46,454 nucleotides of DNA from a virus (IMGVR_UViG_3300031539_000070:1-46454); one strand, 5' to 3'. Counted from the first letter of the stretch, positions 7,442 to 43,600 are shown. Program-made: numbers and translations. Notes: generated by a model from the letters alone, not told the origin.

Positions 7442-7530
7442 CCGGGCTGCGCGCCCACCCCACCATACCGGCAATTCACCCTTGCGCCGCGCGCCGACGC
7501 AACCGTATATTTACAACCCCGGAGGAAGCT

Positions 7531-7656
7531 ATGAATTGGAAAAGCGCGTTACGCAAGCTGATGAAAGCCACGCAGGAGAAGAGTCCGCGCCCGCCGCGAC
7601 GCCGTTCTGGCAAGCGCCGGTCGAGTCAAGTCCGTAACCGTAACGGAGGTGGATAA
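7531..7656 (+). CDS. very small basic protein
   Basis: 41 residues starting at the ATG at 7531, which has GGAGGA five bases upstream. The protein is strongly basic (Lys/Arg in about a third of positions, mostly in the second half), suggesting nucleic-acid or acidic-partner binding. Its TAA overlaps the next ATG (TAATG). A weak promoter-like pair, TTGCGC, 18 bases, TATATT, lies in the 90-base gap upstream. Not recognised. Confidence 0.5.
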   Translation: MNWKSALRKLMKATQEKSPRPPRRRSGKRRSSQVRNRNGGG

Positions 7657-20939: not shown

Positions 20940-21846
20940 AAGGGTGAATGTGGCAAATATTGTGGGATTGCACACGCCAACTCAGACAAACTTCCCGAAC
21001 TTTGCCTTGGCGAAGGTGGCAGCTTACCACGGCAGTATTGGGGATGTGGTGGCGCAGTATGACAGGAGCATCCATGACGAGTTTGACTTGATATACTCAT
21101 CCTCAGTATTCTCGTGGGATTCGCGGGAATTGGTTCCGGCTGGAGCGATATGTGGTGGCAGCGGGTATAATATAAAGCTGGAATTGCCGCCTGAGATGGA
21201 GGGTATGGAACCAGACTATGGCACTTACCCAGAGTTTCCCCATGCGTTTGGTTTTCTAACAAGGGGGTGTATAAGGAACTGCGATTTCTGTATAGTGAGG
21301 GAGAAAGAAGGTCTGTTGCGTCCATACCGGAGCGCTGAAATGGTGCTACAGGGGCGCAAGACAGCGGTGTTCATGGATAACAATGTGCTGGCATCGCCGC
21401 ACGGGCTGAGCCAACTGGAATGGATCGCGGATAACCGCGTTAAGGTAGATTTCAACCAAGGATTGGATGCTCGACTCGTAAAAGATGATACGGCAATTTT
21501 ACTCTCCAAAGTCAAGTGGTTAAGCCCCATACGGCTCGCCTGTGATAGTGACGCGGAAGTGGATGCTGTAGTCAAGGCCATAGAGCTTTTGAGATGGCAC
21601 AATGCAACCCCGCGTGCCTATTGCGTGTATATACTTGTCCGTGACGAGGAATCAACACTCAGGCGACTTCGGGTATTCAAAGGGATGGGAGTTACACCGT
21701 TCGTGCAACCATATAGGGACAAGGATGGAACAGAACCACCCCGATTACTTCGACGTTTGGCGCGGTGGGTTAATGCGGGAGGGGGTAAGGCATTCAAAAC
21801 ATGCAGCTGGGACGAATACCAAAAGGAGCAAGGGGAGCGGATCTAA
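20929..21846 (+). CDS. radical SAM protein
   Basis: 305 residues, ATG after GAGGAGGAAGAGG. The CxxxCxxC cluster motif is at C114, C118 and C121 (RGCIRNCDFCIVREKEG), preceded by about 110 residues that look like a degenerate B12-binding-type Rossmann half (NFALAKVAAYHGSIGD...). Later strands such as VDFNQGLDARL fit the radical SAM barrel. Base composition is clearly AT-richer than the polymerase gene it overlaps, suggesting separate acquisition. Phage radical SAM proteins of this size are widespread, but substrates are mostly unknown. No partner genes for queuosine-type DNA modification are seen here. Confidence 0.8.
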   Translation: MWRERVNVANIVGLHTPTQTNFPNFALAKVAAYHGSIGDVVAQYDRSIHDEFDLIYSSSVFSWDSRELVPAGAICGGSGYNIKLELPPEMEGMEPDYGTYPEFPHAFGFLTRGCIRNCDFCIVREKEGLLRPYRSAEMVLQGRKTAVFMDNNVLASPHGLSQLEWIADNRVKVDFNQGLDARLVKDDTAILLSKVKWLSPIRLACDSDAEVDAVVKAIELLRWHNATPRAYCVYILVRDEESTLRRLRVFKGMGVTPFVQPYRDKDGTEPPRLLRRLARWVNAGGGKAFKTCSWDEYQKEQGERI

Positions 21847-24540: not shown

Positions 24541-26034
24541 ATGCTGAAACCGAGAGACTGGCTACATCGCCTGTCGCCTACCCGCGCTGCTGTTGCTGAG
24601 ACTCGTGCCCGTGACCTCGAGGTGGTTGCGAACCGCTACCGTGGCCACCTCGAATTTATCACGGATGCCGTAGCCGCCATGGCAACAGGCAACGATCTGC
24701 TAACCGCAACTACCGACGACGCGGGTACCAGCGGAACGCACTACACCGGAAATCCCTATAACCATTATAGCCGTAAGGTCACCCAGCTCACCCGCATGTA
24801 CGAGGGCATGGCCGATTGGGGTTGCGACATCTGCCAGCAGGTGGTGGATGTGCGGTCCGCGTTTATCATTGGCCCCGGCCCGCGCCCGGTCCGCAACCCC
24901 GCGTTGCCCGATGCCGTGACCGGCGAACGCGAGTTGGGGTGGTTGAGCACGTTTCTTGCCGCCAATCGCATTGACCATGGCCGCGTAATCAGCTGGTGTC
25001 GGCAGGCGGAGCTTGAAGGCAAAGCGCTTGTGGCGCTGGAGGTCCGCAACGGCGAAGTCCGCGCGAACTACCGTAGCTGGGTCACATGGCCCTATGAGGT
25101 AGGGGTGGAGCAGGACGACTTCGATACGGCCATACGCGCCCGCTACATAGGCCACGCCAGCCCCGATACGGATGCGATCGGACTGTTCGGCCACGCTGGC
25201 GGCCTATCCGAACCCTTCGACCTTGACGCGGCACACTTCGTCTACCGGCGCTTTGGCGGTAGCTACCGGCAGGTAAACTACCCCCCGGCGAAAGCCGCCA
25301 GCGTCATCCGCGACATGCAGGACTTGGACAAGGCGATTTGGGACTGGAGAAAAATCAACCATCTCTACGCATCCCCGACCCCGTATTTCCGGTTTGAGGA
25401 TGCCGACACCGCCACGGATTTTATGAACAGCGTGGAATACAAGAATTGGCGCATCGGCAAGGGAATTGCGATCGGCGGAGCAGGCGCGGAGTTCGATCTG
25501 ATCTGCTACAAGGGCGAGGGCTACACTACGCTCAAGGACGAAATCACCTACCACGCGAGAAAAATCAGCGGCGCCACCAGCGTACCAGTGCATTTCTTCG
25601 GATTCCCCGATTTGCTATCAAACCGCGACACAGCGGACAATATGATCGAAGCCATGGAGATGGGTGCCCGCGAGTCCAAGGCGGAATGGGTGAGTTTGTT
25701 CACGGAACTATATCGGAAAGCCATGGAGCTGGCGAACGCCGGCACCAACTCCCCCGGCCTGCGCCCCGAAGCGGTGGTCGCGGAAATCCCGGAGCTGACC
25801 TCAGCCCACATGACGTGGCTGAAAGAGGTTTGGATACCGTCATATGTCGCTGGCGGCATACCCGACGCGGTTCTGCTGTCCAAGCTCGGCGTGGCGGACG
25901 CGGAAAAGGTAGCGGAGAACATGAAGGCGGAAAAGCAAGAGGAGGCGAAGGCGAATGCGGCAGTACTTGAGAGCCGAAATAGCGGCAATGGCGGGCAGCG
26001 AACTGCTCGGGATGGTGGACGCGGGAGCGCTTGA
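24541..26034 (+). CDS. portal protein
   Basis: 497 residues between terminase and scaffold genes. The N-terminus is helical and basic (LHRLSPTRAAVAETRARD), and YNHYSRKVTQLTRMYEGMADWGCDICQQ is followed by core segments typical of HK97/SPP1-type portals (NHLYASPTPYFRFED, a YKGEGYTTLKDEITYHARKISG stretch, then VPVHFFGFPDLLSNRDTADNM). The C-terminal tail is charged and helical. It forms the 12-fold DNA entry ring. Its ATG has no ribosome site and lies at the predicted +1 of the promoter, so translation may be leaderless. It overlaps the next gene by 80 bases. Confidence 0.82.
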   Translation: MLKPRDWLHRLSPTRAAVAETRARDLEVVANRYRGHLEFITDAVAAMATGNDLLTATTDDAGTSGTHYTGNPYNHYSRKVTQLTRMYEGMADWGCDICQQVVDVRSAFIIGPGPRPVRNPALPDAVTGERELGWLSTFLAANRIDHGRVISWCRQAELEGKALVALEVRNGEVRANYRSWVTWPYEVGVEQDDFDTAIRARYIGHASPDTDAIGLFGHAGGLSEPFDLDAAHFVYRRFGGSYRQVNYPPAKAASVIRDMQDLDKAIWDWRKINHLYASPTPYFRFEDADTATDFMNSVEYKNWRIGKGIAIGGAGAEFDLICYKGEGYTTLKDEITYHARKISGATSVPVHFFGFPDLLSNRDTADNMIEAMEMGARESKAEWVSLFTELYRKAMELANAGTNSPGLRPEAVVAEIPELTSAHMTWLKEVWIPSYVAGGIPDAVLLSKLGVADAEKVAENMKAEKQEEAKANAAVLESRNSGNGGQRTARDGGRGSA

Positions 26035-27130
26035 GCGCATCCGGGCCATTGATTCCCACCCAGAGTTTCGCGCATACGCCATAGGTCACGAGGGCACGGC
26101 GGATATGCAGATACGCTCCCTCGGGCGAACAGTGCCGATCCGGTGGCTGCGTGAGGCGGTCGGCTGGCTGCATAACGCAATCACGGTTGGCATCGCCGCG
26201 TTCAACCGTCACCTGCCGGACAGCAACACCCACGAAGGACGCAACCGGGTTGGCGAGGTAGTTGGCAAGCGCTTGGTGGAGGTAGCCAATCGCGTAACGA
26301 CTATCGTTGCTATGTATATATATCCGGAATATCGCAACTTGCCACTTGACGTGGCGAGCATCGAAGCCGACATGCAGTTTGGCATTGGCGAAGGGGGCCA
26401 AGTGTATCCGACTGGTGTTGGCACCGTAACCGGGATAGCCCTGAGCAGCAGAGAGATTGACCGGCCAGGATTCCCGGGGGCCACGTTACTGGGCGCTGTC
26501 GCTGCATTCGCCCACGGTGAAGGAGCAACAACTATGGCAACAAAATCAGAGGTTCGGGATGCGGTACGCGAACTGAAACTCAGCCCAAGTGATCTGTTCG
26601 AACCCGATGCGGTGCTGGCGGACGCGGTGGTTGACCGTGCTATCAAGGCGGCCAACAAGAACGTGTATGACCAGAGCGCACGGGTGGAAGCAGAGAACAA
26701 GGCGTTGCGTGACCAGCTTGCCACCAAGGACAACGAGTTCAAGGCCGAACTGGCGAAGGCGCAGGCGAATGTGGTCCGTACCCGCGCAGGGACAGTGCTG
26801 GCAACCCTTGCCACGGAACGGAAGATTGGGGAGAAGGAGAAACGCTATATCGAACTTCGCCTTCCCACGCTCCAGACCGAGGCAGCAGACGAAGCCAAAC
26901 TACGCGAGGACGTGAACAAGTTCATCGACGCCCAGCTGGCGGATTACAAAACCACGGCGGAACTCTTCGGTGTGAAAACGGACACGGTCGGGGTTACAAC
27001 CCCAGCGGTAGGCGTATTGCCGGATGGCAACGCCGACACCGCACCAGACATTGTGGCACCCGGGTCACCCGAAACGTATGAGCCGGTGGCACCTGGCCAG
27101 AACCCGTTGGTCAAGCATCTCGGGCTGTAA
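25955..27130 (+). CDS. head morphogenesis protein fused to scaffold (long form)
   Basis: 391 residues with GAGGAGGCGAAGG upstream, starting 80 bases inside the portal gene. Residues 1-190 contain the segment seen in phage head proteins: NLPLDVASIEADMQFG..., then VTGIALSSREIDRPGFPGATLLGAV. Residues 194-330 are a charged coiled coil (RVEAENKALRDQLATKDNEFKAEL), a scaffold type, and the end is Pro/Val-rich with a basic VKHLGL tip. It is the arrangement of a maturation or minor head domain followed by scaffold. No protease catalytic triad could be assigned. Confidence 0.7.
   Translation: MRQYLRAEIAAMAGSELLGMVDAGALERIRAIDSHPEFRAYAIGHEGTADMQIRSLGRTVPIRWLREAVGWLHNAITVGIAAFNRHLPDSNTHEGRNRVGEVVGKRLVEVANRVTTIVAMYIYPEYRNLPLDVASIEADMQFGIGEGGQVYPTGVGTVTGIALSSREIDRPGFPGATLLGAVAAFAHGEGATTMATKSEVRDAVRELKLSPSDLFEPDAVLADAVVDRAIKAANKNVYDQSARVEAENKALRDQLATKDNEFKAELAKAQANVVRTRAGTVLATLATERKIGEKEKRYIELRLPTLQTEAADEAKLREDVNKFIDAQLADYKTTAELFGVKTDTVGVTTPAVGVLPDGNADTAPDIVAPGSPETYEPVAPGQNPLVKHLGL
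26534..27130 (+). CDS. nested in-frame scaffold protein (short form)
   Basis: An internal ATG at 26534 (residue 194 of the long form) is preceded by AAGGAG with an eight-base spacer, much better than expected by chance inside a gene. It begins exactly where the coiled-coil scaffold domain starts (MATKSEVRDAVRELKLS). The 198-residue product would be a separate scaffold made in excess, as in lambda C/Nu3. The separation of domains at this point supports the reading. Confidence 0.65.
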   Translation: MATKSEVRDAVRELKLSPSDLFEPDAVLADAVVDRAIKAANKNVYDQSARVEAENKALRDQLATKDNEFKAELAKAQANVVRTRAGTVLATLATERKIGEKEKRYIELRLPTLQTEAADEAKLREDVNKFIDAQLADYKTTAELFGVKTDTVGVTTPAVGVLPDGNADTAPDIVAPGSPETYEPVAPGQNPLVKHLGL

Positions 27131-27157: not shown

Positions 27158-27550
27158 ATGGCTCTGACGGAGGGTGGACTCAAACTCCGCAGTGACACCG
27201 AGCGCGACACGTACAATTCGCTCGTGGAAACCACGTCTGCCGACATTGATGCTGGCGACATGGCGGCCGTGAACGACGTTGTGGGTGTGTGGGTGAACGA
27301 CTCCGACAGCGGTGACGACAACGTACTGATCTACGAGGCAAGCAAGATCGTGGTTCCCTGCGTTGCCATCACTTCCGGCACTCTTACCGACTATGGCGAA
27401 GGCAGCAAGGTGTACTTCGACTCGACCAACGCGGAGGTTACGGCCGTATCGGCTGGCAACACCCTCTGCGGTATCGTGGTCGACGCACCTGCCGTGGGTG
27501 ATGAGGAAGTTCTCATCCATCTCATGGGCGCCTTGGGCATTGTCAGCTAA
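27158..27550 (+). CDS. head decoration protein (DUF2190-like)
   Basis: 130 residues, ATG after GGAAAGGAAG. Acidic, beta-rich sequence with the pattern of small capsid decoration/stabilising proteins (VVPCVAITSGTLTDYGEGSKVYFD, then AGNTLCGIVVDAPAVGDEEV). It sits between scaffold and major capsid genes, as gpD-type proteins do. Assignment from pattern and position. Confidence 0.7.
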   Translation: MALTEGGLKLRSDTERDTYNSLVETTSADIDAGDMAAVNDVVGVWVNDSDSGDDNVLIYEASKIVVPCVAITSGTLTDYGEGSKVYFDSTNAEVTAVSAGNTLCGIVVDAPAVGDEEVLIHLMGALGIVS

Positions 27551-27572: not shown

Positions 27573-28628
27573 ATGGTACGTAACATTTCGCATCCGTCTG
27601 CGATCTTCGGTGATTGGCGCCTGTTTGAACAGGCGTTGAACAAGGGTACCGAAGGTCGAGTGCTCATCAATGACGCGCTCACGAAGTTCATGCGCCTGGG
27701 GAACCATCCGGTTCTTCGCGCTCAAGCCGCGGCGTTTGCCCGCACGGGCGTTATGCAGCCCGTGAGCGCGTTCGCCACCGGCGACGATTTCCCCACAACC
27801 GTCTTGGAGGTGCTGGAGAAGTACCACCAGACCACCTACCTGGACAACGCATGGGAGCAGATTTTCAACATCCGCGACATGCGTGGATCCCGGCGATCCG
27901 GCTTCGAAATTCTCGACGTGACCGGCAGTCTGACTTTCAGCAAGACGCTGATTGGCGAGAAAGCCAGACTGTATAAGATGTACGGCGAGAAAACCACGGT
28001 CAGCTTCGATCTCTACAGCGGCGGACTGCATTGGAGCCGTCTGCTGTTCGACGACGAGGAGTATTGGACCCTGGAGGACAACGCGATTCAGTTCCGCAAC
28101 AAAGCGGTGTCCAGCAAGGCCCAGGACCATTACGACCTCATCGAAGCCACGGCCGCCACGTACGATCTGGCGTTACAGACTGCGGATGATTCCGGCGTAA
28201 CGAACGCTACGATCGGCTACACGGCGCTGCGGGACATCAAGACGATAAACACCGCATGCGTCAACATCATTAACAGGTTGAAGAACCTGGGCATGGGGAT
28301 AGCCCCCAGCTCACAGTTCATCATCCTCGCCCCAATTGAGCTCAGGGAGCGGATCACACTCGCAGTGGCTCGTACCGCCCAGGCATACGCAGGCAGTCCG
28401 GCGTATTTGCAATACAACGTCGTGCCGCTCTACACCGCGATGCTGTCGGATACGAGCAAGTACTATGTGATCTTCCCCAAGAACAAGATCACGGGTGGAA
28501 ACCGCATGGACCTCACCATCATGTCTGACTTCAACATCACGAACTACAGTGAGTTGGCGGTCGGCTGGATACGGTATGGCGCGGCCATCGCGGAGGAGAA
28601 ACAACTGGTACGATGCGCGACGAGCTAA
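27573..28628 (+). CDS. major capsid protein
   Basis: 351 residues from the ATG at 27573, with GGGAG nine bases upstream; the frame is open further upstream but overlaps the decoration gene. Mixed alpha/beta content, a YHQTTYLDNAWEQIFNIRDMRG segment, and a terminal domain with RMDLTIMSDFNITNYSELAVGWIRYGAAI fit the HK97-fold major capsid protein of siphoviruses. Location after scaffold and decoration genes is decisive. A strong hairpin follows the gene. Confidence 0.8.
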   Translation: MVRNISHPSAIFGDWRLFEQALNKGTEGRVLINDALTKFMRLGNHPVLRAQAAAFARTGVMQPVSAFATGDDFPTTVLEVLEKYHQTTYLDNAWEQIFNIRDMRGSRRSGFEILDVTGSLTFSKTLIGEKARLYKMYGEKTTVSFDLYSGGLHWSRLLFDDEEYWTLEDNAIQFRNKAVSSKAQDHYDLIEATAATYDLALQTADDSGVTNATIGYTALRDIKTINTACVNIINRLKNLGMGIAPSSQFIILAPIELRERITLAVARTAQAYAGSPAYLQYNVVPLYTAMLSDTSKYYVIFPKNKITGGNRMDLTIMSDFNITNYSELAVGWIRYGAAIAEEKQLVRCATS

Positions 28629-28726: not shown

Positions 28727-30229
28727 ATGCCCAAGCCCACGCGCCCGCTGACCGGACCCAGCACCCATACTACCCTGCATGCCCGCCGAGCGCCCTGCAA
28801 GCGCGCTGACACCCCGCGTGAGCCCCCGATCCTGACAGCGCAGGAACACCGTGAGCGGTTACGCACTATCAAGGAGATACGCAGCGACCGCACCAAGCGC
28901 GCAACTACACCCCAGCGTATGGCCCCCAGCAACCGTTCAGTTTACACCGAAATCGAAACTCTGCGCACGCGAGAACTACGCCACGCGGTGCGCCCGGGCA
29001 TCTGGGCTGGTCACCGCGCGTTCATCATCGGCGGCGGCGCGTCGCTGCGCCGGTTTGACTGGAGGTGCCTGTCAAGCGAATTGGTGGTTGGCATCAACCG
29101 TGCGTTCGAGGTCGGCGACTGGGCCTTCAACGTGGCAATGGATACGAACCTATTTGCCAGGTTCGAGTGCGGCGATGCGGGTGAAGCCGCCACCGCCCGC
29201 TGGAAGAACTACGCCGGTTACCGCGTGTGGTGGGGTGGATCAAATTACCTGTTCCCGCCCCCGGACCGCGACCATCCCTACGACATTTGGACAGTGGAAC
29301 CCGCCGCCCACCACGAATTTCCGCTGGGATCGCTGGCGCGACTATCCGCCGCCAACAACACCGGCGTGCTGGCGCTGAATTTGGCAGTGGTGCTCGGCGC
29401 GTCACCCATCTACCTGCTTGGGTTCGACATGAACAGCCCGACGACCGGCCAGAGCTGGTGGCATGACGGTTACGCGGGAAAGGATCAGGGCGCGAAGGTA
29501 TATGCGAGTTTCATCCGGGATTTCGAGCTGATTGCGCCGCGCATTCCCGCAACCACCGAGGTTATCAACCTGAACCCCGATAGTGCCCTGCCGACGTTCC
29601 CGAAGAAGCCGGCGCGTTCCGTGCTGGCGGTTCCGCGCCCGCTGCGCCCCGTAATAACGAGCTTCTACACCCCTGATACCGGCTACGAGGGGGAAGCGCG
29701 GCGGTTACGGAGGTCATGCGCATTGTTCGGGCTGGAGTGCGACATCCGCGCCATGCCGTCCCGCGGGAACTGGCTGGCGAACGCGAGCCGCAAGCCCCAC
29801 CATCTGCTGGAGGTCATGGCCGCTCACCCCGGGCGGACAGTGGTGTGGATGGACGCGGATAATGTGGTGCAACGCTACCCGGAGCTGCTCGACGGCGCGC
29901 CGAACTGGGACGTAGCGTTCGTCACGGTGGATTGGAGCGCGCTGCCGGTTGGCCGCAACGACAAAGAGCTACTGTCCGCCACCGTGGCGCTGGCCCCGAC
30001 ACCGGCTGCACGCGCCTTGGTCACCGCTTGGGCGAAAGCAGTGGATGAGAACCCAACATGGAACGACCAGCGCGCGTTACGCGAGGCCCTGGGCAAAACG
30101 CGTGCGGCCCGGGTATGCGAACTGCCCCTGACCTACTGCCAGATTTTCGACACAATGGCGGGCGTGGGCGAACCGGTAATCGAGACATTCCAAGCGTCCC
30201 GGCGCCTGCGCTCGGAGGTGAGGGCATGA
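28727..30229 (+). CDS. DUF115-type protein fused to a GT-A glycosyltransferase-like domain
   Basis: 500 residues. Residues 1-90 are basic and probably flexible. Residues 95-300 have the DUF115/MptE-like pattern: AFIIGGGASLRRFDW (98-112), VVGINRAF (120-127), MDTNLF (138-143), then a Rossmann-like region with GVLALNLAVVLGASPIYLLGFDM. DUF115 proteins are found with glycan and flagellin-modification loci. Residues 305-490 look like a nucleotide-sugar transferase: RPVITSFYTPDTGYEGEA and then VVWMDADNVV (370-379), with the DxD motif for metal and nucleotide binding. First gene of the metabolic island after the capsid hairpin. Substrate unknown. Confidence 0.75.
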   Translation: MPKPTRPLTGPSTHTTLHARRAPCKRADTPREPPILTAQEHRERLRTIKEIRSDRTKRATTPQRMAPSNRSVYTEIETLRTRELRHAVRPGIWAGHRAFIIGGGASLRRFDWRCLSSELVVGINRAFEVGDWAFNVAMDTNLFARFECGDAGEAATARWKNYAGYRVWWGGSNYLFPPPDRDHPYDIWTVEPAAHHEFPLGSLARLSAANNTGVLALNLAVVLGASPIYLLGFDMNSPTTGQSWWHDGYAGKDQGAKVYASFIRDFELIAPRIPATTEVINLNPDSALPTFPKKPARSVLAVPRPLRPVITSFYTPDTGYEGEARRLRRSCALFGLECDIRAMPSRGNWLANASRKPHHLLEVMAAHPGRTVVWMDADNVVQRYPELLDGAPNWDVAFVTVDWSALPVGRNDKELLSATVALAPTPAARALVTAWAKAVDENPTWNDQRALREALGKTRAARVCELPLTYCQIFDTMAGVGEPVIETFQASRRLRSEVRA

Positions 30230-30942
30230 CAACCCGCATTGTGCTGCCTACCTACTGCCGCCCGGAGAAATTGGCCCGGTTGCTGCGTTCCATGGATGCT
30301 GGAATGACCCCGAATACCGAGGTCCATATCGGCTGGTCCCCCGGAGACCCGACACGCCGGGAAGGTGACCGGTTGCTGGTTGGCCGCCCGTGGCTCCGTT
30401 ACTTCACGCATGAGCCAGCGTTTCATGCGGCAGAGTTCTGGAACGCATATTTGGCCCGGGTCCAAGCGGACATATACGTTTACCTCTGCGATGACACCGA
30501 GCTTATGCGCGACACGCTGGTTACCGCCCGCCTGCTATATTTGGCGAATTTCCCCCATTTTGACGGCCTGCTCGGGTTTGACCAGATCAACCTGCGCGCC
30601 GCGGGTGTCGACACGTGCCCCGCGGCGTTCGGCGCCATAGGGCGTAAATTCATCGATGCGTTCCCCGGTCGCCGTGTCTTTTGCCCGGACTACCACACGC
30701 TCTGGGTGGATCAGGAGATGATGGAGTATGCGCAGGCCAGAGGCAAATTCGTGTTTGCTCCGGAAGTGAGGTTATACCACCACCACCCTAGCGTAAATAG
30801 CCAGGACCTTGATGTCACGCACACGCATAACCGCCAGTTCAAGCGCGCCGACAACGCGACCCGCGCCACACGCCGGTCCCGCGGCCTGACATGGGGTTTG
30901 AGCTGGGAATTGGTGAATGCCGAGAAGGGGGCCAGCGCGTGA
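30226..30942 (+). CDS. glycosyltransferase-like protein (GT-A fold)
   Basis: 238 residues from the ATG overlapping the previous stop. IVLPTYCRPEKLARLLRSM (5-23) is the typical GT2-like start, and IYVYLCDDTELM (about 86-97) carries the acidic metal-binding pair. A His-rich strand (VRLYHHHPSV, about 181-190) lies where the catalytic or acceptor loop is expected. Likely transfers or recognises a sugar in the same pathway as its neighbours. Confidence 0.7.
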   Translation: MTTRIVLPTYCRPEKLARLLRSMDAGMTPNTEVHIGWSPGDPTRREGDRLLVGRPWLRYFTHEPAFHAAEFWNAYLARVQADIYVYLCDDTELMRDTLVTARLLYLANFPHFDGLLGFDQINLRAAGVDTCPAAFGAIGRKFIDAFPGRRVFCPDYHTLWVDQEMMEYAQARGKFVFAPEVRLYHHHPSVNSQDLDVTHTHNRQFKRADNATRATRRSRGLTWGLSWELVNAEKGASA

Positions 30943-31694
30943 TCCGCATAAGTTTTGTCATGCCCAGCCGCGGCCGACCCGGACCGCTACGCCGTACGAT
31001 CAACACGATGTTTGCCAACGCCGTTGCGCCCGAGAGTTGGGAGCTATTCGTTATCACGGACGACGATGACCAATCCAGCGTGGGTGCTACCCTCGACTTG
31101 CACAGCCACTACAGCGGCGCCAACCTGCGCTTCCTCACCCGGCCCCGCAGTGCGAACCTCAGCAACGACTATTACAACTGGGTGTTCTTTGGCCACGCCC
31201 CGCTGAGCCCCGCAGGCGACGTGTTCGGCGTCATAGGGGATGATGTGGATTTCGTTACCCCCGCATGGGACGCGGCGGCCATAGCGGCGCTGGATGAGCT
31301 ACTCACCCGCTGGCCCGACCGCGTGTTCGCTGCGTACCCGCAGGATTTGAACGGCGTCAAGCCCGATGTAGGCCTTCCGAGTTGGGGTTGGTTCCCGCTG
31401 ATGACCCGGAAAACAGCGGGTTTGCTGGGGTGGTTCATACCCGCCGAGTTCCCGACATGGGCTGCGGATGTGCTGATTGCGCGTCTGTTCTCCGCGGTAG
31501 GCCGGTATGCCCGTTTGCCCTACACACTCGACCATGTGAGTTACCACAATTACGCAAATGTCCCGCAGGACGAAACCGCGATTTCCATGAGGAACCGGTT
31601 TCACTCACGTGAGGAAGGTGCGATTCGGGCGGCGTTCATGGCGCATGCGTACCCGGGGTGCGAGAAAATTCTCAGGGAGGCCATCAATGCGTGA
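30939..31694 (+). CDS. second GT2-like glycosyltransferase
   Basis: 251 residues from the GTG at 30939 overlapping the previous stop (GTGA). IRISFVMPSRGRPGPLRRT (2-20) and VFGVIGDDVDFVTP (about 90-103) are GT-A features; DDDD near residue 42 and SNDYYNWVF near 75 are also typical. It is coupled to both neighbours. Different enough from the preceding transferase to act on another sugar or acceptor. Confidence 0.75.
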   Translation: MIRISFVMPSRGRPGPLRRTINTMFANAVAPESWELFVITDDDDQSSVGATLDLHSHYSGANLRFLTRPRSANLSNDYYNWVFFGHAPLSPAGDVFGVIGDDVDFVTPAWDAAAIAALDELLTRWPDRVFAAYPQDLNGVKPDVGLPSWGWFPLMTRKTAGLLGWFIPAEFPTWAADVLIARLFSAVGRYARLPYTLDHVSYHNYANVPQDETAISMRNRFHSREEGAIRAAFMAHAYPGCEKILREAINA

Positions 31695-32775
31695 GTGGGC
31701 AGAGGGCAATGCGTTCAACAGCTTCAACAGCTGGAAGGGGCTGCTATACGCGGACTGGTACCGGGGAGTGGCGGAAGGCACGTACCTGCCCCCCATAGAA
31801 GCCAGCGTGGACTTGATACACGCCTGTAACCTGCATTGCCGTCACTGTAACGCACACCGCTACCTCGACGGAGCAATGCGCATAAGCGACGACCATCTGC
31901 TGGCTCTGATAAGCGAATTGGGCGACTGGGGCGTGCGCGCTGTCTGCTTCGGCGGCGGCGGCGAACCAACGCTGCATTCCGGGCTGGGAGCTGCAATAAT
32001 CATGTCCCGGGCAGCAGGCATGAGCGCGGCCGTAACCACCAACGGGGTGCAACTGACTGATGCCTTGGACAGCGCCGCGCTGTTGTGCCGTTGGGTCGGG
32101 ATCAGCGTTGATGCAGCCACGGCGGCCACCTATGCGCGACTCAAGGGTGCGAGCCCCCGCGTGTTCGATACCGTGACCGACAACCTCGAGCGACTGGCGA
32201 AACGCGCCGGCCCCCACTGCGACATCGCGTTTAAGTTCCTGGTGTCGTCCATCAACCAGACTGAAGTGCTGGCCGCGTGCCAGCTGGCGCGTAACTTGGG
32301 AGCCCGGGACTTCCACGCCCGGCCGATGGACTTCCACCACCAGGGCATGGGTGCGGAGCTGGACGGCCAACTCGCAGGCGTGGACGTGGACCGCGTGAGG
32401 GACCAGATGGCTGCATGCCACGAGCTGGCAACCGACGATTTCCACGTGTATACGGTGGTGCATAAGTTCGGGCCGGATTGGTCGCCGGTAAAGCGTTTCC
32501 GCGGCTGCTGGGCGGCGCCACTAGCCATCCAGCTCTGCGCCGACGGCTGGGGATACCTTTGCGTGGACCAGCGCCATAACCCGGCGTTACGCCTTGGCCG
32601 CCACGACCCGGACTTGGGCGAGATGCGGAAATGGTGGGGTAGCGCTGCCCACCAAGCGCTGGTTCGGAAATCCGCGGCCAGCTGCACAACCCGCTGCACG
32701 TTCGGGGTGTATGCGGAGCAGTGCGAGCGGCTGTTCATAAACGACGATGATCCAATGTGCTGGGAGTTTACATAA
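31687..32775 (+). CDS. radical SAM enzyme with SPASM-like C-terminus
   Basis: 362 residues. The cluster motif is C47-x3-C51-x2-C54 (DLIHACNLHCRHCNAHRYL), followed by CFGGGGEPTLH (87-97), the GGE-type SAM contact. In the C-terminal part, CWAAPL and GWGYLC are followed by a CTTRCTFGVYAEQC group, close to the SPASM/twitch auxiliary Fe-S arrangement. Such enzymes modify peptides or sugars (oxidation, epimerisation, dehydration). In this operon a sugar or a virion-protein side chain would be the natural target, but this is inference. Confidence 0.82.
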   Translation: MREWAEGNAFNSFNSWKGLLYADWYRGVAEGTYLPPIEASVDLIHACNLHCRHCNAHRYLDGAMRISDDHLLALISELGDWGVRAVCFGGGGEPTLHSGLGAAIIMSRAAGMSAAVTTNGVQLTDALDSAALLCRWVGISVDAATAATYARLKGASPRVFDTVTDNLERLAKRAGPHCDIAFKFLVSSINQTEVLAACQLARNLGARDFHARPMDFHHQGMGAELDGQLAGVDVDRVRDQMAACHELATDDFHVYTVVHKFGPDWSPVKRFRGCWAAPLAIQLCADGWGYLCVDQRHNPALRLGRHDPDLGEMRKWWGSAAHQALVRKSAASCTTRCTFGVYAEQCERLFINDDDPMCWEFT

Positions 32776-32777
32776 CC

Positions 32778-33149
32778 ATGCGACGCGACCCTGGGGACAT
32801 AATTGACCGTTTGAGCATCGCGCTACTGAAATCCGCGCGTATCGGTACGTCCCAAGCGCGGCAGGAGGTGGCGATGTTCATGGACGGCCTGATCGAGTTG
32901 CTTGACCGCCACCCGGCCATTGATTGGGTCATTCACCTTGCCCACATGAAGGAAATAAACGGGCGTATCTGGGACATGGAGGCCGCAGTACGCTCCGGTG
33001 CATTGGATAACGACTTGCCGCGGGTAGGTGCGCGTGCGGTTGCTATCCGGCATGTCAACGCCGAACGCATAGCCCTGAAAAACGCGATAAACGATACAAC
33101 TGGAGAGGGGGTACAGGATGTCAAGGTCGATCACCTCAGCGCCAACTGA
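32778..33149 (+). CDS. small helical protein, DUF6165-like
   Basis: 123 residues from the ATG at 32778. The order DPGDIIDRLSIALLKSARI, then AHMKEINGRIWDMEAAVRSG, then HVNAERIALKNAIND recalls DUF6165-type proteins, all helical, often found beside glycosyltransferases. Role unknown, possibly scaffolding. Overlaps the following transketolase subunit gene by 32 bases. Confidence 0.55.
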   Translation: MRRDPGDIIDRLSIALLKSARIGTSQARQEVAMFMDGLIELLDRHPAIDWVIHLAHMKEINGRIWDMEAAVRSGALDNDLPRVGARAVAIRHVNAERIALKNAINDTTGEGVQDVKVDHLSAN

Positions 33150-33990
33150 GTTAGGTGCGCTCGAAGCCACGGCGGACCAACTGCGCCGCGATGTGTTAGG
33201 GACCTGCTGCAACGCCGACTCGGGCCGTGTAGGCAGCTCCCTGAGTTGCGTTGACATCCTTACCGCGCTCTATTTCGGCGGTGTCCTGCGTTATGACCCG
33301 GCCAACCCGAATTGGGCGGACCGCGATCGGTTCGTGCTGAGCAAAGGCCACGCCGGCCCGGCGCTCTACTGTGCGTTATCGCGTGCCGGGTTCTTCCCCG
33401 CCGACTGGCTCACCCGGCTCTCCCAAGACAACGGGCCATTCGGCTCCCTGACCCAGCACGGTGTTCCGGGCGTGGAGGCCACGGCCGGGAGTCTGGGTAT
33501 TGGCTTCGGCATCGCCGCAGGCATGGCGCTGGCTGCCCGCCTGCAACGCGAGAACTGGCTGACATGGGTGTTGCTGGGCGACGCGGAGTGCTACGAGGGT
33601 AGCGTGTGGGAGGTGGCAGCCGTAGCCGCGCACCAGCGGTTAAACAACCTTGTCGCCATAGTGGATCGCAACTGTATGGGCGCCACGGACTGGACCGAGA
33701 ACGCCTGCGCGCTGGAGCCATTCGCGGACAAGTGGGAGGCGTTTGGGTGGAATGTGGAAGAGGCGGCGGGCCACGATATGGAAGAGTTACTATCCGCATT
33801 CACCGATATGGATACGCGCTTCTGCGACCGACCCACAGTGTTTATTTGCCACACCGTCAAGGGTTTCGGCGTGGATTTCCTCACGAACGCCCCGCTCCAG
33901 CACGCGCGTATCCCCAAGGGCGACCAAGAACTGGATGCCCGACGCCAACTGGGTTTCCCGGAACCCATGCAGGAAGGAGGCGGACAGTGA
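33118..33990 (+). CDS. transketolase N-terminal subunit
   Basis: 290 residues. VLSKGHAGPALYCAL (73-87) and GDAECYEGSVWEVAAVAAHQ (154-173), followed by LNN (175-177), are the pyrophosphate and GDG-type thiamine diphosphate motifs of split transketolases. A DRFVLSKGH...HGVPGVEATAGSLG stretch matches as well. It forms the N-half of a two-subunit enzyme with the next gene (GTGA overlap). The reaction would move or make two-carbon keto units; in a glycosylation cluster it may supply an unusual sugar. Confidence 0.88.
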   Translation: MSRSITSAPTELGALEATADQLRRDVLGTCCNADSGRVGSSLSCVDILTALYFGGVLRYDPANPNWADRDRFVLSKGHAGPALYCALSRAGFFPADWLTRLSQDNGPFGSLTQHGVPGVEATAGSLGIGFGIAAGMALAARLQRENWLTWVLLGDAECYEGSVWEVAAVAAHQRLNNLVAIVDRNCMGATDWTENACALEPFADKWEAFGWNVEEAAGHDMEELLSAFTDMDTRFCDRPTVFICHTVKGFGVDFLTNAPLQHARIPKGDQELDARRQLGFPEPMQEGGGQ

Positions 33991-34868
33991 GCGCAACCCA
34001 ACGCGATGTGTTTTGGCAGGCCGTCACTGCTCGGGCGCTCCATGACGAGAGGATTGTCGTAGTCACGGCTGACATGAGCGCGCCCGCGCTGGATGACTTT
34101 CGCCGCCGCTTTCCCCACCGCTACATCAACACAGGGGTCGCGGAACAGGCGGCGGTGTTGACCGCGGCGGGACTGGCGCTTGCTGGCCTACGACCCTTCT
34201 GCTATGCCATACAGCCCTTTGCGGGACTCCGTGCGCTGGAGCCGTGGAAATGCGCGGTAGTGCTACATGCGCTCCCCGTTGTGCTAGTCGGCGTCGGAGC
34301 CGGCTTGGGCATAGCAGATAGCGGCCCAACCCACCACGCGATTGGGGATTTGGGCGCAATGCTCGCCATCCCAGGCACTGAGGTGCTATGCCCCAGCTCC
34401 CGTGTGCTGACCGAAGCCGCAGCGGCTCACTGCCTTGGCACCCACGGCCCGGTCTATGTACGGCTGGACCAAGCCGCGGATCTTCCGGAACCCCCGGAAC
34501 CCAAGCCCGGCGCCATCCGCAGCGGCGTCATAGTCCACCGCGGCCACCCGACACGCATGGTAATAACGTCGGGCGCGCTGGTGTCCGAGGCCCTGACGCT
34601 TGAGGACACAGGCGTGATCGAGGTCTGGCGGTTCCCGTTCGATCCCGGCGCCATCAGCGAGAATATCCGCGGCACCTACGTGGTCGTGTGGGAGGAAACC
34701 ACCGGCGCACTGTACGACCAGCTGTGCCGGGCATTCACGACATGGTATGCAAGGGGATTATATTCTATCCGCGCCCACAATTACAGCTACCAATACGGTG
34801 GCCGGGCGCAGATACGGAAGTCCATGGGTATTGACCTCGAGGAGGTGAAACGATGCCTGACCGAGTGA
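33987..34868 (+). CDS. transketolase C-terminal subunit
   Basis: 293 residues from the GTG at 33987. YINTGVAEQAAVLTAAGLALAG (about 47-68) contains the catalytic Glu of the cofactor-activating site, and PFCYAIQPFAGLRALE follows; later PVYVRLDQ and the C-terminal fold (VITSGALVSEAL) are typical. Split pairs like this occur in bacterial branched-sugar and antibiotic-sugar loci. Coupled to both neighbours. Substrate not determined. Confidence 0.87.
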   Translation: MSATQRDVFWQAVTARALHDERIVVVTADMSAPALDDFRRRFPHRYINTGVAEQAAVLTAAGLALAGLRPFCYAIQPFAGLRALEPWKCAVVLHALPVVLVGVGAGLGIADSGPTHHAIGDLGAMLAIPGTEVLCPSSRVLTEAAAAHCLGTHGPVYVRLDQAADLPEPPEPKPGAIRSGVIVHRGHPTRMVITSGALVSEALTLEDTGVIEVWRFPFDPGAISENIRGTYVVVWEETTGALYDQLCRAFTTWYARGLYSIRAHNYSYQYGGRAQIRKSMGIDLEEVKRCLTE

Positions 34869-36223
34869 CTAGCAACCTTTCCCGCTATCTTGTCCGCCCG
34901 AACTCCCGCATCATAAGCTACGGCGCGCTGGATGACTTGGCGGCCGTGGAGCCGCCGCACTGGATGGGCGCCCGCGCCGAGCAAGTGCTACAGGGGGCCA
35001 GCGCGGCAACAGCGTGGATGGTCGATTTGCAAACAGACCCCGGCAGCATCGAGTTTCTGCGCGGCCTGCAGAAGGACGCCGTGGTGGAAATCTGGCCCAC
35101 GGGCAACCACCCCAGCGCGCACGTGCAGGAACAGGCAGGTATCGTTGAGGTGCAGCGAGCCATCGGCGGCCGCGGCAAGTTGGTAACGCAACTACCCGCG
35201 AGCGTAACGCGATATTCGCCCACCGGCCATTACAACCCGTCACACTACCGTGCCCACAACTGGCACGCGTGGGGCACGCCCTGGCCGCGTTCCCCCTACG
35301 CAACAGTTCACACATCGGTCTCCTGCCCTCACGTCTGCACATTCTGCAGCGTGCGGGACTACTACGGCACTGGCTGGAGTGAGCGGGCGATCAAGGAGGT
35401 TCTGCGCGACCTCGACTCCCTCTCAGCCGCTGGCACCCACCATGTCAAAATTATGGACGAGCTGTTCGTCCGCCGCACGCCGCGGTTCAAAGAGCTTATC
35501 CACGCCATGGCTGGTTACGGAGACACGCTGAATTTCTGGGGCTATGCGCGCGTGGACTCGGTGGACCCTGCGCTGTTGCCCGACATGAAGTCCGCGGGTA
35601 TAAACTGGGTGTGTCTGGGCATCGAGTCGGGCAACCCGGACATCCGCGCGTCCATGCATAAAGGCACATTCACCAACCGCCAAGTGCGCGACGTGGTGTG
35701 CGCGTTACAGGACGCAGGCATCGCCGTATTGGGGAACTTCTTATTCGGTTTTCCTGACGACACGGCCGATACAATGGAACGCACGTACCAGTTCGCGGTG
35801 GAGTTGGATTGCGAGTATGCGAACTTCTACGCCATGGTGGCGTACCCGGGGACCGAGCTGGAGAAGTTGGCTCGTGCCACGAACTGGGCGCTACCAACAG
35901 GTCCGTCCCAGTACGCCCAATACTCCCGGGACTTTCTACCGCTACCCACTCATGCACTTAGCGCCACCGAGGTATTACGCTTCCGGGATCGCGCGTGGCA
36001 CGAATACCATAGCAGGGCAAGTTATCTTGAACTCGTACGCCGCCGCTTCGGCCCCCGCGCTGTGGAGGACATGATAGGCGCGACGGACCGTGATCTGCCG
36101 CGTGACCTGTTCGGGGGCGGGAACTGGAAGGACGTGGACTTGGTGCGGACCTCACGATACCGCCACAAAACCAAGGCGGTTACGGTCCGCAGCGGCGCGA
36201 GGGGGTCAATATGCCAGAGCTGA
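34853..36223 (+). CDS. B12-type radical SAM protein
   Basis: 456 residues. C158-x3-C162-x2-C165 (SVSCPHVCTFCSVRDYYG) is the cluster, after a 150-residue N-terminal domain that could be a degenerate B12-binding Rossmann fold. IMDELFV (about 199-205) and WGYARVD, then GIESGNPDIRASMHKG (about 258-273) and GNFLFGFPDDTADTM are the standard barrel segments of the B12-binding radical SAM group (methylthiotransferase and methylase relatives). It overlaps the transketolase end by 16 bases. Likely a methylation, ring-contraction or carbon-insertion step on a sugar or amino acid; substrate unknown. Confidence 0.82.
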   Translation: MPDRVTSNLSRYLVRPNSRIISYGALDDLAAVEPPHWMGARAEQVLQGASAATAWMVDLQTDPGSIEFLRGLQKDAVVEIWPTGNHPSAHVQEQAGIVEVQRAIGGRGKLVTQLPASVTRYSPTGHYNPSHYRAHNWHAWGTPWPRSPYATVHTSVSCPHVCTFCSVRDYYGTGWSERAIKEVLRDLDSLSAAGTHHVKIMDELFVRRTPRFKELIHAMAGYGDTLNFWGYARVDSVDPALLPDMKSAGINWVCLGIESGNPDIRASMHKGTFTNRQVRDVVCALQDAGIAVLGNFLFGFPDDTADTMERTYQFAVELDCEYANFYAMVAYPGTELEKLARATNWALPTGPSQYAQYSRDFLPLPTHALSATEVLRFRDRAWHEYHSRASYLELVRRRFGPRAVEDMIGATDRDLPRDLFGGGNWKDVDLVRTSRYRHKTKAVTVRSGARGSICQS

Positions 36224-36828
36224 ACTGGGGGAGCGAGGGCGGCATGGGGAGTAGAGACACCACACAACTGAAACAATTGGTCCAAGGCGTGTGTCCGCCC
36301 GCCCGGCTGATCGGAGAGCTGGGGTGCTGGACCGGTGCCGGGACCCGAGTGCTGGCCGAGGCGGCAGGCCCACACGCAACCGTGGTAAGCGTGGATTGGT
36401 TCCGCGGCAACGAGGGCACGGTAATCGGCGCTTGGGCAGCGGCGGGCAATGACGTGCTGAGCTACTGGCGCGCCAACACGGTGGACCTGAAAAACGTTAT
36501 TTGCGTCATTGCAGAAAGTGGCCATGCTGCCGCCGCCCTTGCGCATGGCCAATTCGACCTGTTCTTCATCGACGCGGACCACCGGTATGCGAATGTCCAC
36601 CGAGACTTGGCGCTTTGGGAACCGGCTATACGCCCTGGTGGCATACTCTGCGGCCACGACTTCGAGCACTCTGTGGAAGAGTGCACAGTGGAGGAACTGG
36701 CGCAGGAGAATGTGGATTACCTTGAGGGGCCAAACATACACCCTGGCGTCATTCGCGCCGTGACTGAGCGTTACGGGTCCCGGGTCAACTACGGAAACCG
36801 ACTTTGGTGGGTGGAGGTAGGCGCATGA
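36211..36828 (+). CDS. SAM-dependent methyltransferase (class I, Methyltransf_24-like)
   Basis: 205 residues. LIGELGCWTGAGTRVLAEA (33-51) is motif I, VVSVDWF (about 57-63) follows, and FDLFFIDADHRYANVHRDLALW (about 112-133) is the post-II/IV region with a metal-type D-x-H. This subgroup methylates hydroxyl groups of sugars or small molecules. Overlaps neighbouring genes at both ends (13 and 4 bases), so it belongs to the island operon. Confidence 0.8.
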   Translation: MPELNWGSEGGMGSRDTTQLKQLVQGVCPPARLIGELGCWTGAGTRVLAEAAGPHATVVSVDWFRGNEGTVIGAWAAAGNDVLSYWRANTVDLKNVICVIAESGHAAAALAHGQFDLFFIDADHRYANVHRDLALWEPAIRPGGILCGHDFEHSVEECTVEELAQENVDYLEGPNIHPGVIRAVTERYGSRVNYGNRLWWVEVGA

Positions 36829-37559
36829 AACGTATAACGAATTGGCTTGATGGCCGCACTGCCGCGATTGCCCTCCATGGAGCCAGCATCCGGGGACTCC
36901 GGAACCACCCGCACTACCTCGACCGTAACTGGGCGTGGGCGACTGTCAACCGCTGGCAGGTGGTGGAGAAGATATTATGGCCGGATCTGCCCGCAGTCGA
37001 CCGTCCGCTCGGGCTGGTGTTGATGACGAGCGAGACGGAGATGGAGAAAGTAGGTTCGACCCTTGTGATGTTCCTCAACAGGAATGAGAGTAACCTGGTC
37101 GTTACCACCCTTGCCTCGTTGAACGCGAACCCGGCGGTCGAGCACATACTGACGGAATGCCATCGCGGTCGGGTCGTATTGGTGCGCAGACCCCCGTTGG
37201 TGGCCACGGAACACCTGGACGGCACGGCGGCGCTGAACTCGGCGATGCTACTGGCAATGACGCTCGTCCGGGCCGGCGCGCGCCGGCTACTGTTCTTCGG
37301 TTTGGATGGGGCGGAACCGGGAGAGGTTGTTCAAGCAAGGCAGAAGGAGACATACGCGGACCAGAGCATATTCCGCGATAGTTCCCGGGATACCCAGATT
37401 GCCCGCGACACATGGGTTATGAACGAGTCCGCCAATGCCCTGCTCACTCAGGCAATGGACCAAACGGGCGCACGGATAGAGGTATACAACGCGTCGCCCG
37501 CTACATATATTACAGCATTCCCGGTCATCAGCCACGCACAAGCGGTGGAGATACCGTAA
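36825..37559 (+). CDS. DUF115-like protein, second copy
   Basis: 244 residues from the ATG overlapping the previous stop. TAAIALHGASIRGLRNHP near the start and VNRWQVVEKILWPDLP recall the DUF115-type IIGGGASL...GINRAF layout of the first island gene, with later AMLLAMTLVRAGARRLLFFGLDG parallel to its GVLALNLAVVLGASPIYLLGFDM segment. The two are therefore probably divergent paralogues, and only the first carries a transferase domain. Last gene of the island. Confidence 0.65.
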   Translation: MKRITNWLDGRTAAIALHGASIRGLRNHPHYLDRNWAWATVNRWQVVEKILWPDLPAVDRPLGLVLMTSETEMEKVGSTLVMFLNRNESNLVVTTLASLNANPAVEHILTECHRGRVVLVRRPPLVATEHLDGTAALNSAMLLAMTLVRAGARRLLFFGLDGAEPGEVVQARQKETYADQSIFRDSSRDTQIARDTWVMNESANALLTQAMDQTGARIEVYNASPATYITAFPVISHAQAVEIP

Positions 37560-37574: not shown

Positions 37575-38051
37575 ATGGCAGTCACAATAACGGTAGGGAC
37601 CAATAGCTGGGTAACGGAAGCCGAGGCGAACGCGTACATGGAGACGCGTGTAGGGTCGAGCGACTACTGGACCGCCGGCGCCACCGCCAACAAAGGTGCG
37701 TTGGTGGGTGCATACAACGAACTCCTGCGTTCCGGGCGTTGGAGTTTGAGCGCGGCTGCAGCCGCGGTCCAAGCTGTCAAGGACGCCCAGTGCGAACACG
37801 CGCTGTTCCTGCTCATCCACGAGCCAGACCGTAGCATCCGTGAGGGGCTGCAATCCCAGCTGGTGGTGGTGGCAGGTATCGTCAAGGAGCAATACGCCCC
37901 GCGCACCGGCCGCCTGAGCACCAGCAACCAGGTCGAGAATCTGCTGCGAACCTACCTGGCTGTCAAGCCGTTCCACATCTTCGACATCGAGCGGGACGAG
38001 GAGCAGACCACGGACTACAACGCGCCGGGTAACTTGGAAAGGAGCGAGTAA
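37575..38051 (+). CDS. head completion/connector protein (DnaT-like in databases)
   Basis: 158 residues. The N-terminal pattern TNSWVTEAEANAYMETRVGS and W-rich helical segments followed by helical repeats match phage proteins usually listed as DnaT-like but located in head-tail joining modules. Position as first gene after the island and before neck genes supports a connector role. The database name is probably historical. Confidence 0.65.
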   Translation: MAVTITVGTNSWVTEAEANAYMETRVGSSDYWTAGATANKGALVGAYNELLRSGRWSLSAAAAAVQAVKDAQCEHALFLLIHEPDRSIREGLQSQLVVVAGIVKEQYAPRTGRLSTSNQVENLLRTYLAVKPFHIFDIERDEEQTTDYNAPGNLERSE

Positions 38052-40654: not shown

Positions 40655-43600
40655 ATGTTCAACATCGGTGCGATAGTGGCGAAGATCCGGCTCGACAGGA
40701 GTGGTTGGGACAGTTCCCGCCACCAAGTCAGCCGCGACCTGGCCATCCTCGGCGCGGAGTTCGGCGTCCTGGGCGGTATGATAACGGGCGCTTTGTCCAT
40801 CGCGGTCCGGAGATTCGGGCGTTTCGACAAGGCCATCCGTGAAGCCACGGCCGTCACCACCGGCATTACGCGCATCGAGTTTGAGCAAATGAGCGCCATG
40901 GCGCAGGATATGAGCGTGGCCCTGAATTTGGCGGCCACGGAAACCTCCCGCGCGTTCTACTACCTTGGAAGCGCGGGCCTGAGCGCCGCCGAACAGATGG
41001 ACTCGTTCAACGCGACTATCACACTGGCACGGGCCATCACCGAGGACACGGCAATGACCGCCGAGGGTCTGGTCGACATCATGAAGGCGTTCCAGATCGA
41101 GTTTTCACGCTCGGATTGGGTTGCGAACCAGCTGGTAAAGTCGGTCATAACGAGCAACCAGGTATTCGCCGACCTTGACGCGGCCATGAGTTACGCCAGC
41201 AGCACAATGCGGTTGATGAACAATACCATAGCTGACACCGCCGCGGTGCTGGGCGTCATGGCGAACGCAGGCATAAAAGGTTGCTACGACGACCAGACCG
41301 AGGTACTGGTGCGCCGCGGTTGGATACCGTGGTCTGCTGCAACCATGGACGACGAGTTCGCCACGTTGCAGCCAGACACAAATATGCTGGAATACCAGCG
41401 ACCAACCCGGCTGATCTGCTATCGCCACAGCGGTCCCATGTATCATGTAGCGAACCGCGGCTTGGACCTCTGCGTGACTCCCGATCACCGCATGTGGGTG
41501 AGGCGTAGGGACACCACCGCATTCGAGATAATGACTGCGAGCGAAGTAGACGGCCGCGAGGTGCGATACCAGTCGGGGGATATTGGCTGGGCGGGCAATG
41601 ACCCTACTACCATCACGCTTCCCGGCTTCACGCGCACCCAAGGACCGCGCACTGTGGAACCTATGGACATTGACGCCGGGGTCTGGGCAACCTTCCTCGG
41701 ATGGTATATCTCCGAGGGCTCCTGCGACTATCGGCGCGGCAACTACCGCATCCGTATCACCCAGAACCCCGGACCTGTGCGTGACCGCATGCGCGAAGTG
41801 CTGGCAAAACTCCCTGTCACGGTCAACGAAACCAAAGCAGGATTCACTTTTGCCAACCAGCAGATATGGAATCACGTAGAGCCGCTGGGCAAATCTTGGG
41901 AGAAGCGGGTGCCGGATGATGCTAAGAACTGGTCCCCACGCCTCCTGCAACTGCTACTTGACGCGCTGTTGGAGGGCGACGGCGATTGTAACGGTGTCTA
42001 CTATACCTCCTCGCACCAACTTGCGGATGACGTAATGGAGATTGCGTTGAAAGCGGGACACAGTGCAACCATGGGGCTGGCCACCTCTGCAGGTTCAACC
42101 TCCACCATCAAGGGGCGGGAAGTCAGAGCTGTCCACGATCAATGGAAGATCAATACGCATCGAAAGCTCCTCCACCCCGGTTACAATCCGAATGACTACC
42201 GGGGGGTACACGGGGATCGGATTGACGGGTCCAGGTTCTCCCCCATCAGTGAGTGGGTGGATTATGACGGCGAGGTATTCTGCGCCGAAGTCCCCAACCA
42301 CCTCCTGATTGTGCGCCGCAACGGAAAGCCCGTTGTCTCGGGTAACAGCATGGCCGGCGTAGCCCTGCGCCGCTCCGTGACGAACCTGATGTCGCCCACC
42401 CGGGAGATGCGGGACCTGCTGCGCGACCTGGGGGTAAACGTATTTGACTTGGTGACTGGCGGGGCGCGGCCGTTCATCGACGTGATGGGTGACATAGAGG
42501 ACGCGCTCAAGGGCACGACCGAGCAATACCGTAACATGGCGTTGGAAGTCCTATTTGGCCGCCGCGCCATCGCGGGTATGATTAATGTGCTGGAATACGG
42601 AGCTGACGGCCTGCGCAAATATTCCACCGAAATAGCCAACAGCGGCGGCACAATGAAGAGCGTGACGGATTGGCAGATGGCTGCGTTCCTGCACCAGCTC
42701 GGCCGGGTCGGGCAAATGATCCAGCGTGTATCGCGGCTGGTCGGCGAATCGCTCGCCCCGAGAATACGCGCGTTCGCAGACTTGCTCGGTGCCCGAGTCG
42801 AGGTTTTGCGCGAGTGGATGGAGGCACACCGTGAGCTGGTGGCCCAACTCGCGTTGACGGTTGCAAAAATCGGCCTGCTGCTCACAGCCATTGGCGCTCT
42901 CACAATCGCCATTCCCATAGTGGCGATGAACATAAAAATCCTCATCGGTCTGCTTACATCGCCTCTGCTCTGGGCCATAGGCGCGGTCATCGTCGCCTTC
43001 TATCTCCTGCGTTCGGCGTTCAACGTCACATGGGACGGCATGGGAGACATATTCAACAAGTTCGCCAATACATTTGAACAATGGGGCAAGGACTTTGCGG
43101 CCAACTGGGAGAACAGCATCATTGGACAGATGTACCTTGTGTTCAAGGCGTTTATCAACCGAGCCATCCACGGCTGGGTGTTGATGTTCCGTGCCATGAA
43201 GTCGCTGTCGAGAGACGCCGAAATGACATGGGGAGGCATGTTGCTACGGATGAGCCCTCTATACCGGATGATGCAACTGATGACATCCCCGATACTCGGA
43301 GGAGAAGAGCGATGGATTCTCGGGAAACTCGTCAGCGATTTGCAAGGGGACATGCCTGACTATATCGGGATGGGCATGGAGGAAATTCCAGCCACATTCC
43401 AGAAGGTGGTGAAGTTCGTCAAGCAGGACGTGATGAGTTTCAAGGACTGGCTGGCAGAACAGTGTGCCGATTTCGCAGCGATATGGCGCATACTGACCAG
43501 CGGCCAGCCCACGAGCTTCGGCGCGCTAGTGCCTAAATTCGAGTACCCGGACATCATCGGTTACCGCACCGTGAGCGCGCCCATGGAGGGCAAGTTTGAG

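Follow-up and report, generated by a model that had tools for sequence, protein, structure and literature searches.

Maf proteins, which belong to the PF01973 family and have a CstII-like domain, O-glycosylate flagellins with nonulosonic acids (PMC11339370), and their genes can occur in hypervariable islands within the flagellar locus (PMC13317340). Glycan genes are already known in the head operons of phages as well, the Corndog-type mycobacteriophages being the described case (PMC4351075). Here we analyse an island of sugar genes in an uncultured virus (record IMGVR_UViG_3300031539_000070:1-46454; the window, that is the whole stretch of DNA analysed, is 46,454 bases long) and propose, with somewhat more confidence than doubt, that it is a glycosylation locus which would decorate virion proteins in the cytosol, a phage counterpart of the Maf-anchored flagellar islands. 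The right half of the window is a tailed-phage structural block, in which genes for the small and large terminase, a putative portal, a scaffold/protease-like protein, a decoration protein and a putative capsid protein precede the island, and those for an adaptor, connectors and the tape measure follow it. The features discussed below are:

24541-26034: putative portal, named by synteny
25955-27130: scaffold/protease-like gene, named by synteny
27158-27550, plus strand: head decoration protein homologue (phrog_122, E 5e-10)
about 27573-28628, plus strand: putative major capsid protein, named by synteny and not by homology, with gene order conserved in relatives
28727-30229, plus strand: p1, an N-terminal tail followed by a DUF115/CstII-like domain and a GT-A domain; the constant anchor of the locus
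30226-30942, plus strand: p2, GT2-like glycosyltransferase (phrog_14945 and TIGR04440, both weak)
30939-31694, plus strand: p3, GT2-like glycosyltransferase, weak (phrog_14945, E 1e-6)
31687-32775, plus strand: p4, radical SAM protein with SPASM-like C-terminal cysteines (PF04055, E 7e-15)
32757-33149, plus strand: p5, DUF4254/DUF6165-like (weak Pfam matches under curated cut-offs)
33118-33990, plus strand: p6, ThDP-binding subunit of a split transketolase (PF00456, Transketolase_N, E 4e-37)
33987-34868, plus strand: p7, pyrimidine-binding subunit of the split transketolase (PF02779, Transket_pyr, E 4e-23)
34853-36223, plus strand: p8, radical SAM protein with a B12-dependent-type core (PF04055, E 7e-14)
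36211-36828, plus strand: p9, methyltransferase (PF13578, Methyltransf_24, E 5e-19)
36825-37559, plus strand: p10, a second, remote DUF115-like protein (hhalign to the p1 family)
37575-38051, plus strand: head-tail adaptor Ad1-like protein (phrog_477, E 3e-8), the 3' border of the island

The island (28727-37559) is filled by these ten plus-strand open reading frames, successive genes overlapping by 4-32 bp, which bears out the description of a tightly overlapping ten-gene operon of sugar genes in an earlier note on this DNA. The starts listed are the best chosen for each gene, 32778 being an alternative to 32757 for p5. GC3 is 0.745 in the island and 0.740 in the structural genes, codon usage is equal, and promoter or terminator signals in the island region did not exceed chance. 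The gene beside the island, which the note had called the major capsid gene, holds that position, while its identity comes from synteny: it belongs to a family that has no assigned function (phrog_24071) and lies directly after the decoration homologue. Its naming by synteny was counted against virion decoration.

Scans of IMG/VR recovered over 100 related loci, the scan with p1 yielding eight relatives and scans with p1 and capsid alignments many more; p6 and p8, each used as a single-protein query against IMG/VR, gave no match, and the cluster is in no record of a GenBank-derived phage collection. Contigs selected by the capsid gene alone are free of the ascertainment bias that comes with scanning by p1. 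Among 52 contigs so found (known near-duplicates removed and at least 0.9 kb present downstream, many contigs being fragments), DUF115 is the first plus-strand gene after the capsid gene in 46 and among the first two in 51, and the DUF115 protein is often fused to a GT-A transferase. The exception, L126, has no island, its capsid gene being followed by the adaptor gene; because the capsid tree groups it with the island carriers L024, L029 and L034, it has apparently lost the island. A separate set of contigs has DUF115 downstream of the adaptor gene, one gene over. The contention that placement next to the capsid gene favours virion decoration is therefore supported across the lineage (51/52). 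Bacterial viruses with this locus make up an undescribed group, for which metagenome bins of the relatives give Ca. Aminicenantes, Hydrogenedentota and Deltaproteobacteria as host leads.

Gene order within the island is shared as well. The order p4-p5-p6-p7-p8 recurs in the divergent loci L016, L019 and L028, and in L095 as far as p7, where the contig ends, so that the genes belong together as proposed, and the gene-order search that the note had called for found them neither scattered nor absent in relatives. L007, L017 and L092 keep p4, p10 and p5 and have in place of p6-p8 genes of the GDP-mannose-dehydratase and epimerase families (cargo scan). Cargo elsewhere among the islands includes transferases, methyltransferases, sulfotransferases, LicD, deacetylases, NeuB and GDP-mannose dehydratase. 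NeuB is present in L016 and L019, both of which carry the window-type cassette, and a cytidylyltransferase in L016. Domain searches found no nonulosonic-acid synthesis genes in the window island, and the idea of a complete route to the sugar did not hold, since no nucleotidyltransferase, NeuB or dehydratase was recognised there; relatives carry such genes. The absence of a recognised activation enzyme from the window island was counted against virion decoration. In the capsid tree, non-carriers are interspersed among the carriers of either cassette type, and cassettes have likely been exchanged or lost along the lineage; the labels cluster neither more nor less than shuffled labels do, and the tree therefore does not fix the number of exchange events. 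Moreover, p4 is 54-58% identical among the carriers L016, L019, L028 and L095, against 46-54% for the capsid protein, which together with the equal codon usage points to a set that has long been in place and was not newly acquired.

The domain core of the anchor protein p1 begins near 28919, and the N-terminal tail ahead of it is of the same kind as in relatives. p1 matches PHROG_4603 'alpha-2,3-sialyltransferase' (E 5e-19) and, weakly, PF03407 (E 5e-4). PF01973 (Maf/MptE-like) is matched by five of six p1 family members, the match in the window's own p1 being not significant (E 0.11), a value that was counted against virion decoration. At the level of the family, a PF01973/CstII-like transferase thus stands in a structural locus, as it does in the Maf islands. 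A profile search with the p1 family reached CstII sialyltransferases over domain 1 (E 0.002) and xyloglucan xylosyltransferase over domain 2 (E 0.014). In the structure prediction of the DUF115-GT fusion, which had been suggested earlier (pLDDT 72, pTM 0.75), the best fold match of the GT-A part is the PBCV-1 glycosyltransferase (2p6w/2p72/2p73; E 4e-6), at 14-16% identity. This identity and the debated role of the PBCV-1 enzyme (PMC4691112) were also counted against virion decoration.

A short motif (for example ILTISDL, MMTMRDV and MITTRDR) is repeated in the N-terminal tails of p1 family members: 118 DUF115 proteins contain 41 copies, where shuffling predicts 0.45, a comparison that is partly circular because the motif was defined on the same tails. 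It is also enriched in small open reading frames between the portal and scaffold genes of relatives (11/107 against 0.4 expected), a set independent of the motif definition in which some members are near-copies of one another. In the window p1 itself, the tail shows no more than a single degenerate copy (ILTAQEH). The motif might serve as a docking peptide or mark where a glycan is attached.

Both transketolase domains are present across p6 and p7, and p7 retains the catalytic glutamate motif GVAEQ. The closest solved relative of p6 is the split-chain transketolase 6yak, aligned over the full length (E 2e-68). Viral p6 proteins have GDAE where GDGE is canonical, and the canonical histidine positions, placed by alignment only, vary among them (SGR/TGH.., SKGQ or SKGY variants): the window has SGR for SGH, L016, L019 and L028 have SKGQ for SKGH, and L095 has SKGY. 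Given these altered active-site residues, the substrate may differ from that of 6yak. A nearby cellular relative (L170/L186) also has GDAE and SKGQ. A search of whole genomes from two phyla (297 + 68) turned up no viral-type p6: the best cellular match scored 296 bits, whereas viral members reach about 540-560 with this model, which was built on viral sequences. Transketolase matches in the phage collection (MT83xxxx, OR84xxxx) were rejected as relatives and treated as contamination, because the fully read L003 and L004 carry ordinary bacterial housekeeping genes.

The CxxxCxxC motif of p8 is invariant across four viral members, and its radical SAM core fits the models of PhpK, HpnJ and AprD4, all under cut-off. 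The label 'B12-type' given to p8 earlier therefore suits the core and fails for the B12-binding domain, which was not detectable in the window p8 and is present (PF02310) in the cellular relatives L186 and L198; for this reason we do not file p8 as a B12-dependent enzyme. A relative of the p6-p7-p8 trio was located in a bacterial genome (L186), where the gene directly upstream of the transketolase pair encodes a B12-radical SAM protein whose core is 41% identical to that of p8; the p8 profile has members in 6 of 297 genomes sampled from the phylum of L186. Other cellular p8 relatives also lie in sugar clusters: in L198 the homologue adjoins NeuB (families confirmed by Pfam), and in L200 it accompanies two-subunit ThDP (E1-type) genes, a GHMP kinase and a nucleotidyltransferase (likewise Pfam-confirmed). 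L196, L197 and L199 were assessed by eye from sequence only. Each of the seven relatives with p5 also has p4, and no named pathway was found for the two.

Homologues of p2 are present in many islands, of p3 in L016, L028 and L095, and of p10 in six islands. The suggestion that p10 is a second DUF115-like protein is backed by a weak hhalign match (probability 68%, E 5e-5) between it and the DUF115 half of p1, and domain and fold searches assigned p10 no family and no clear fold match.

We infer the protein target, the identity of the sugar and the order of the steps as follows. As a soluble transferase, p1 would act during virion assembly, its DUF115 (Maf/CstII-like) domain attaching a sugar (probably an ulosonic acid activated with CMP) to a protein of the head or tail, and the glycan may then be extended by the GT-A domain of p1, by p2 and p3 and perhaps by p10. 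The genes downstream of p1 would be exchangeable cassettes for making or tailoring the sugar. In the window cassette, p6/p7 may transfer a two-carbon unit and thereby build a sugar that is longer or branched, p8 and p4 may change it by radical chemistry and p9 may methylate it, with sugar activation presumably supplied by the host.

It is also conceivable, though we think it unlikely, that the island changes the host surface, adding sugars, in infection or in lysogeny, to lipopolysaccharide or some other glycan of the envelope and so blocking superinfection by other phages. The NeuB, GDP-mannose dehydratase and LicD cargo is typical of envelope polysaccharides, as are the sugar clusters that hold the cellular p6-p8 relatives, some relatives lie in metagenome-assembled contigs of 189 and 415 kb, as expected of putative prophages, and a host-surface role has been proposed for comparable pelagimyophage genes (PMC7029224). 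The locus, however, sits within the structural block in nearly every relative and not at an integration site, and almost no multi-pass gene accompanies it that could supply a flippase or polymerase: a crude hydropathy scan found two hydrophobic segments in one of 430 island genes (borderline) and more in none, and no multi-pass membrane gene among p1-p10. The membrane flippase and bactoprenol-linked transferase of an O-antigen conversion cassette are accordingly missing from p1-p10 in that scan, although the host could provide the membrane steps. Because multi-pass membrane genes are nearly absent, a cytosolic protein target fits better than O-antigen conversion.

Two further readings dispense with a protein or envelope glycan. 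Radical SAM and ThDP enzymes are frequent in natural-product pathways, and AprD4 and PhpK are among the closest models of p8, as would suit a diffusible small molecule, a modified cofactor or an auxiliary metabolite; yet the constant gene is a transferase fusion, most recognised cargo of the relatives is of glycan type and export or carrier genes were not recognised, all of which makes such a product improbable. Least credible, and to our minds very improbable, is that the sugars hypermodify the phage's DNA and so protect it from restriction. DNA can be a substrate of phage glycosyltransferases (PMC12619734), and the window encodes a DNA methyltransferase and a radical SAM protein (phrog_9298) beside the DNA polymerase, but the gene scan, which took in part of the early open reading frames, revealed no recognisable base hydroxymethylase, the sole match labelled thymidylate synthase falls within an intein of the tape measure gene, and the island belongs to the structural module. 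We favour glycosylation of virion proteins on account of the Maf-like layout, the NeuB and cytidylyltransferase genes of relatives with the same cassette and the scarcity of hydrophobic segments.

A broader and more tentative proposal, which we hold possible rather than probable, is that of a lineage-wide capsid island, in which the Maf-like DUF115-GT fusion would recognise virion proteins, perhaps through the tail motifs, swapped cassettes would give serotype-like variation of the coat, and the window cassette would make an undescribed sugar by two-carbon transfer and radical chemistry. If this is true, uncultured phages keep a hotspot for sugar swapping beside the coat gene, in parallel to flagellar glycosylation islands, variation of coat glycans in phages becomes testable at large scale, and viruses and bacteria have in common a sugar pathway that combines a split ThDP enzyme with a radical SAM protein.

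The note's claim that no phage system of this kind is described stands for the exact gene set, which was not found in the open-access literature or the phage records searched; in the broad sense it does not, given the Corndog-type phages and the pelagimyophages. The former have glycosyl- and methyltransferase genes in the head operon, with capsid modification proposed; these genes are flanked by portal and protease instead of following the capsid gene, and PMC4351075 names neither genes for making sugars nor a transketolase or radical SAM proteins. Pelagimyophages, which are T4-like myophages, likewise have a hypervariable region with glycosyltransferase and radical SAM cassettes, but near the tail fibre genes and with no described linkage of DUF115 to the capsid gene; it has been read as a means of changing the host surface (PMC7029224), an interpretation of comparable cargo that was counted against virion decoration. 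PBCV-1 A64R, the best match to the GT-A part of p1, is virus-encoded and was deposited as a capsid glycosylation enzyme (2p6w, 2p72, 2p73), whereas it differs from p1 in sequence, comes from a eukaryotic virus and has a methyltransferase-like second domain. With 6yak the viral enzyme shares the split chain and differs in the GDAE motif and the histidine positions. In contrast to the Maf islands of Clostridium and Campylobacter, the viral locus adjoins a putative capsid gene in place of flagellin, its transferase is fused to a GT-A domain and the window cassette has a split transketolase and radical SAM proteins without NeuB. With those islands it has in common a hypervariable sugar island in a structural locus, a PF01973/CstII-like transferase, nonulosonic-acid genes (in the viral relatives) and soluble enzymes that act on a structural protein, presumably one of the virion in the viral case.

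A short repeated motif (for example ILTISDL or MITTRNI) is common to the N-terminal tails of the family of p1, the island's DUF115/GT-A transferase, and to small ORFs of the head module. These small motif-bearing ORFs look disordered and are placed between the portal and scaffold genes, as in three viral contigs compared with the window:

L125, 2138-2368: small motif ORF, portal-scaffold interval
L089, 4660-4986: small motif ORF, portal-scaffold interval
L118, 7897-8175: small motif ORF, portal-scaffold interval

Outside the island, the gene for the tape measure protein is interrupted by what appears to be an intein:

Window, 40655-44230: tape measure gene, with an insert at about 41279-42349

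The intein junctions read ..AGIKG/CYDDQTEVL.. and ..PVVSGN/S.. (slash, junction), and the putative intein gave a weak LAGLIDADG match. A further radical SAM gene (20929-21846; phrog_9298, E 1e-69) immediately follows the DNA polymerase gene, and a minus-strand gene at 4872-6191 has PHROG amidoligase matches.

Bacterial housekeeping genes were found in MT835631 and MT836054, phage-labelled records of a 'phages' collection, and are probably carried by further MT83xxxx and OR84xxxx records labelled as phage; such records are likely contamination.

Among viral relatives, L126 lacks the island, its putative capsid gene leading directly to the adaptor gene (6617-8100). In L012, a phage that gave no match to the window's capsid profile, the presumed decoration gene is directly followed by three features (6072-8064): a p1-type glycosyltransferase domain, another small ORF and an ORF that looks like DUF115. 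In the cellular genome G014, a B12-radical SAM protein and a split transketolase form a bacterial trio (L186, 2371-5729), which is related to viral p6-p8, the island's split transketolase pair and radical SAM protein.
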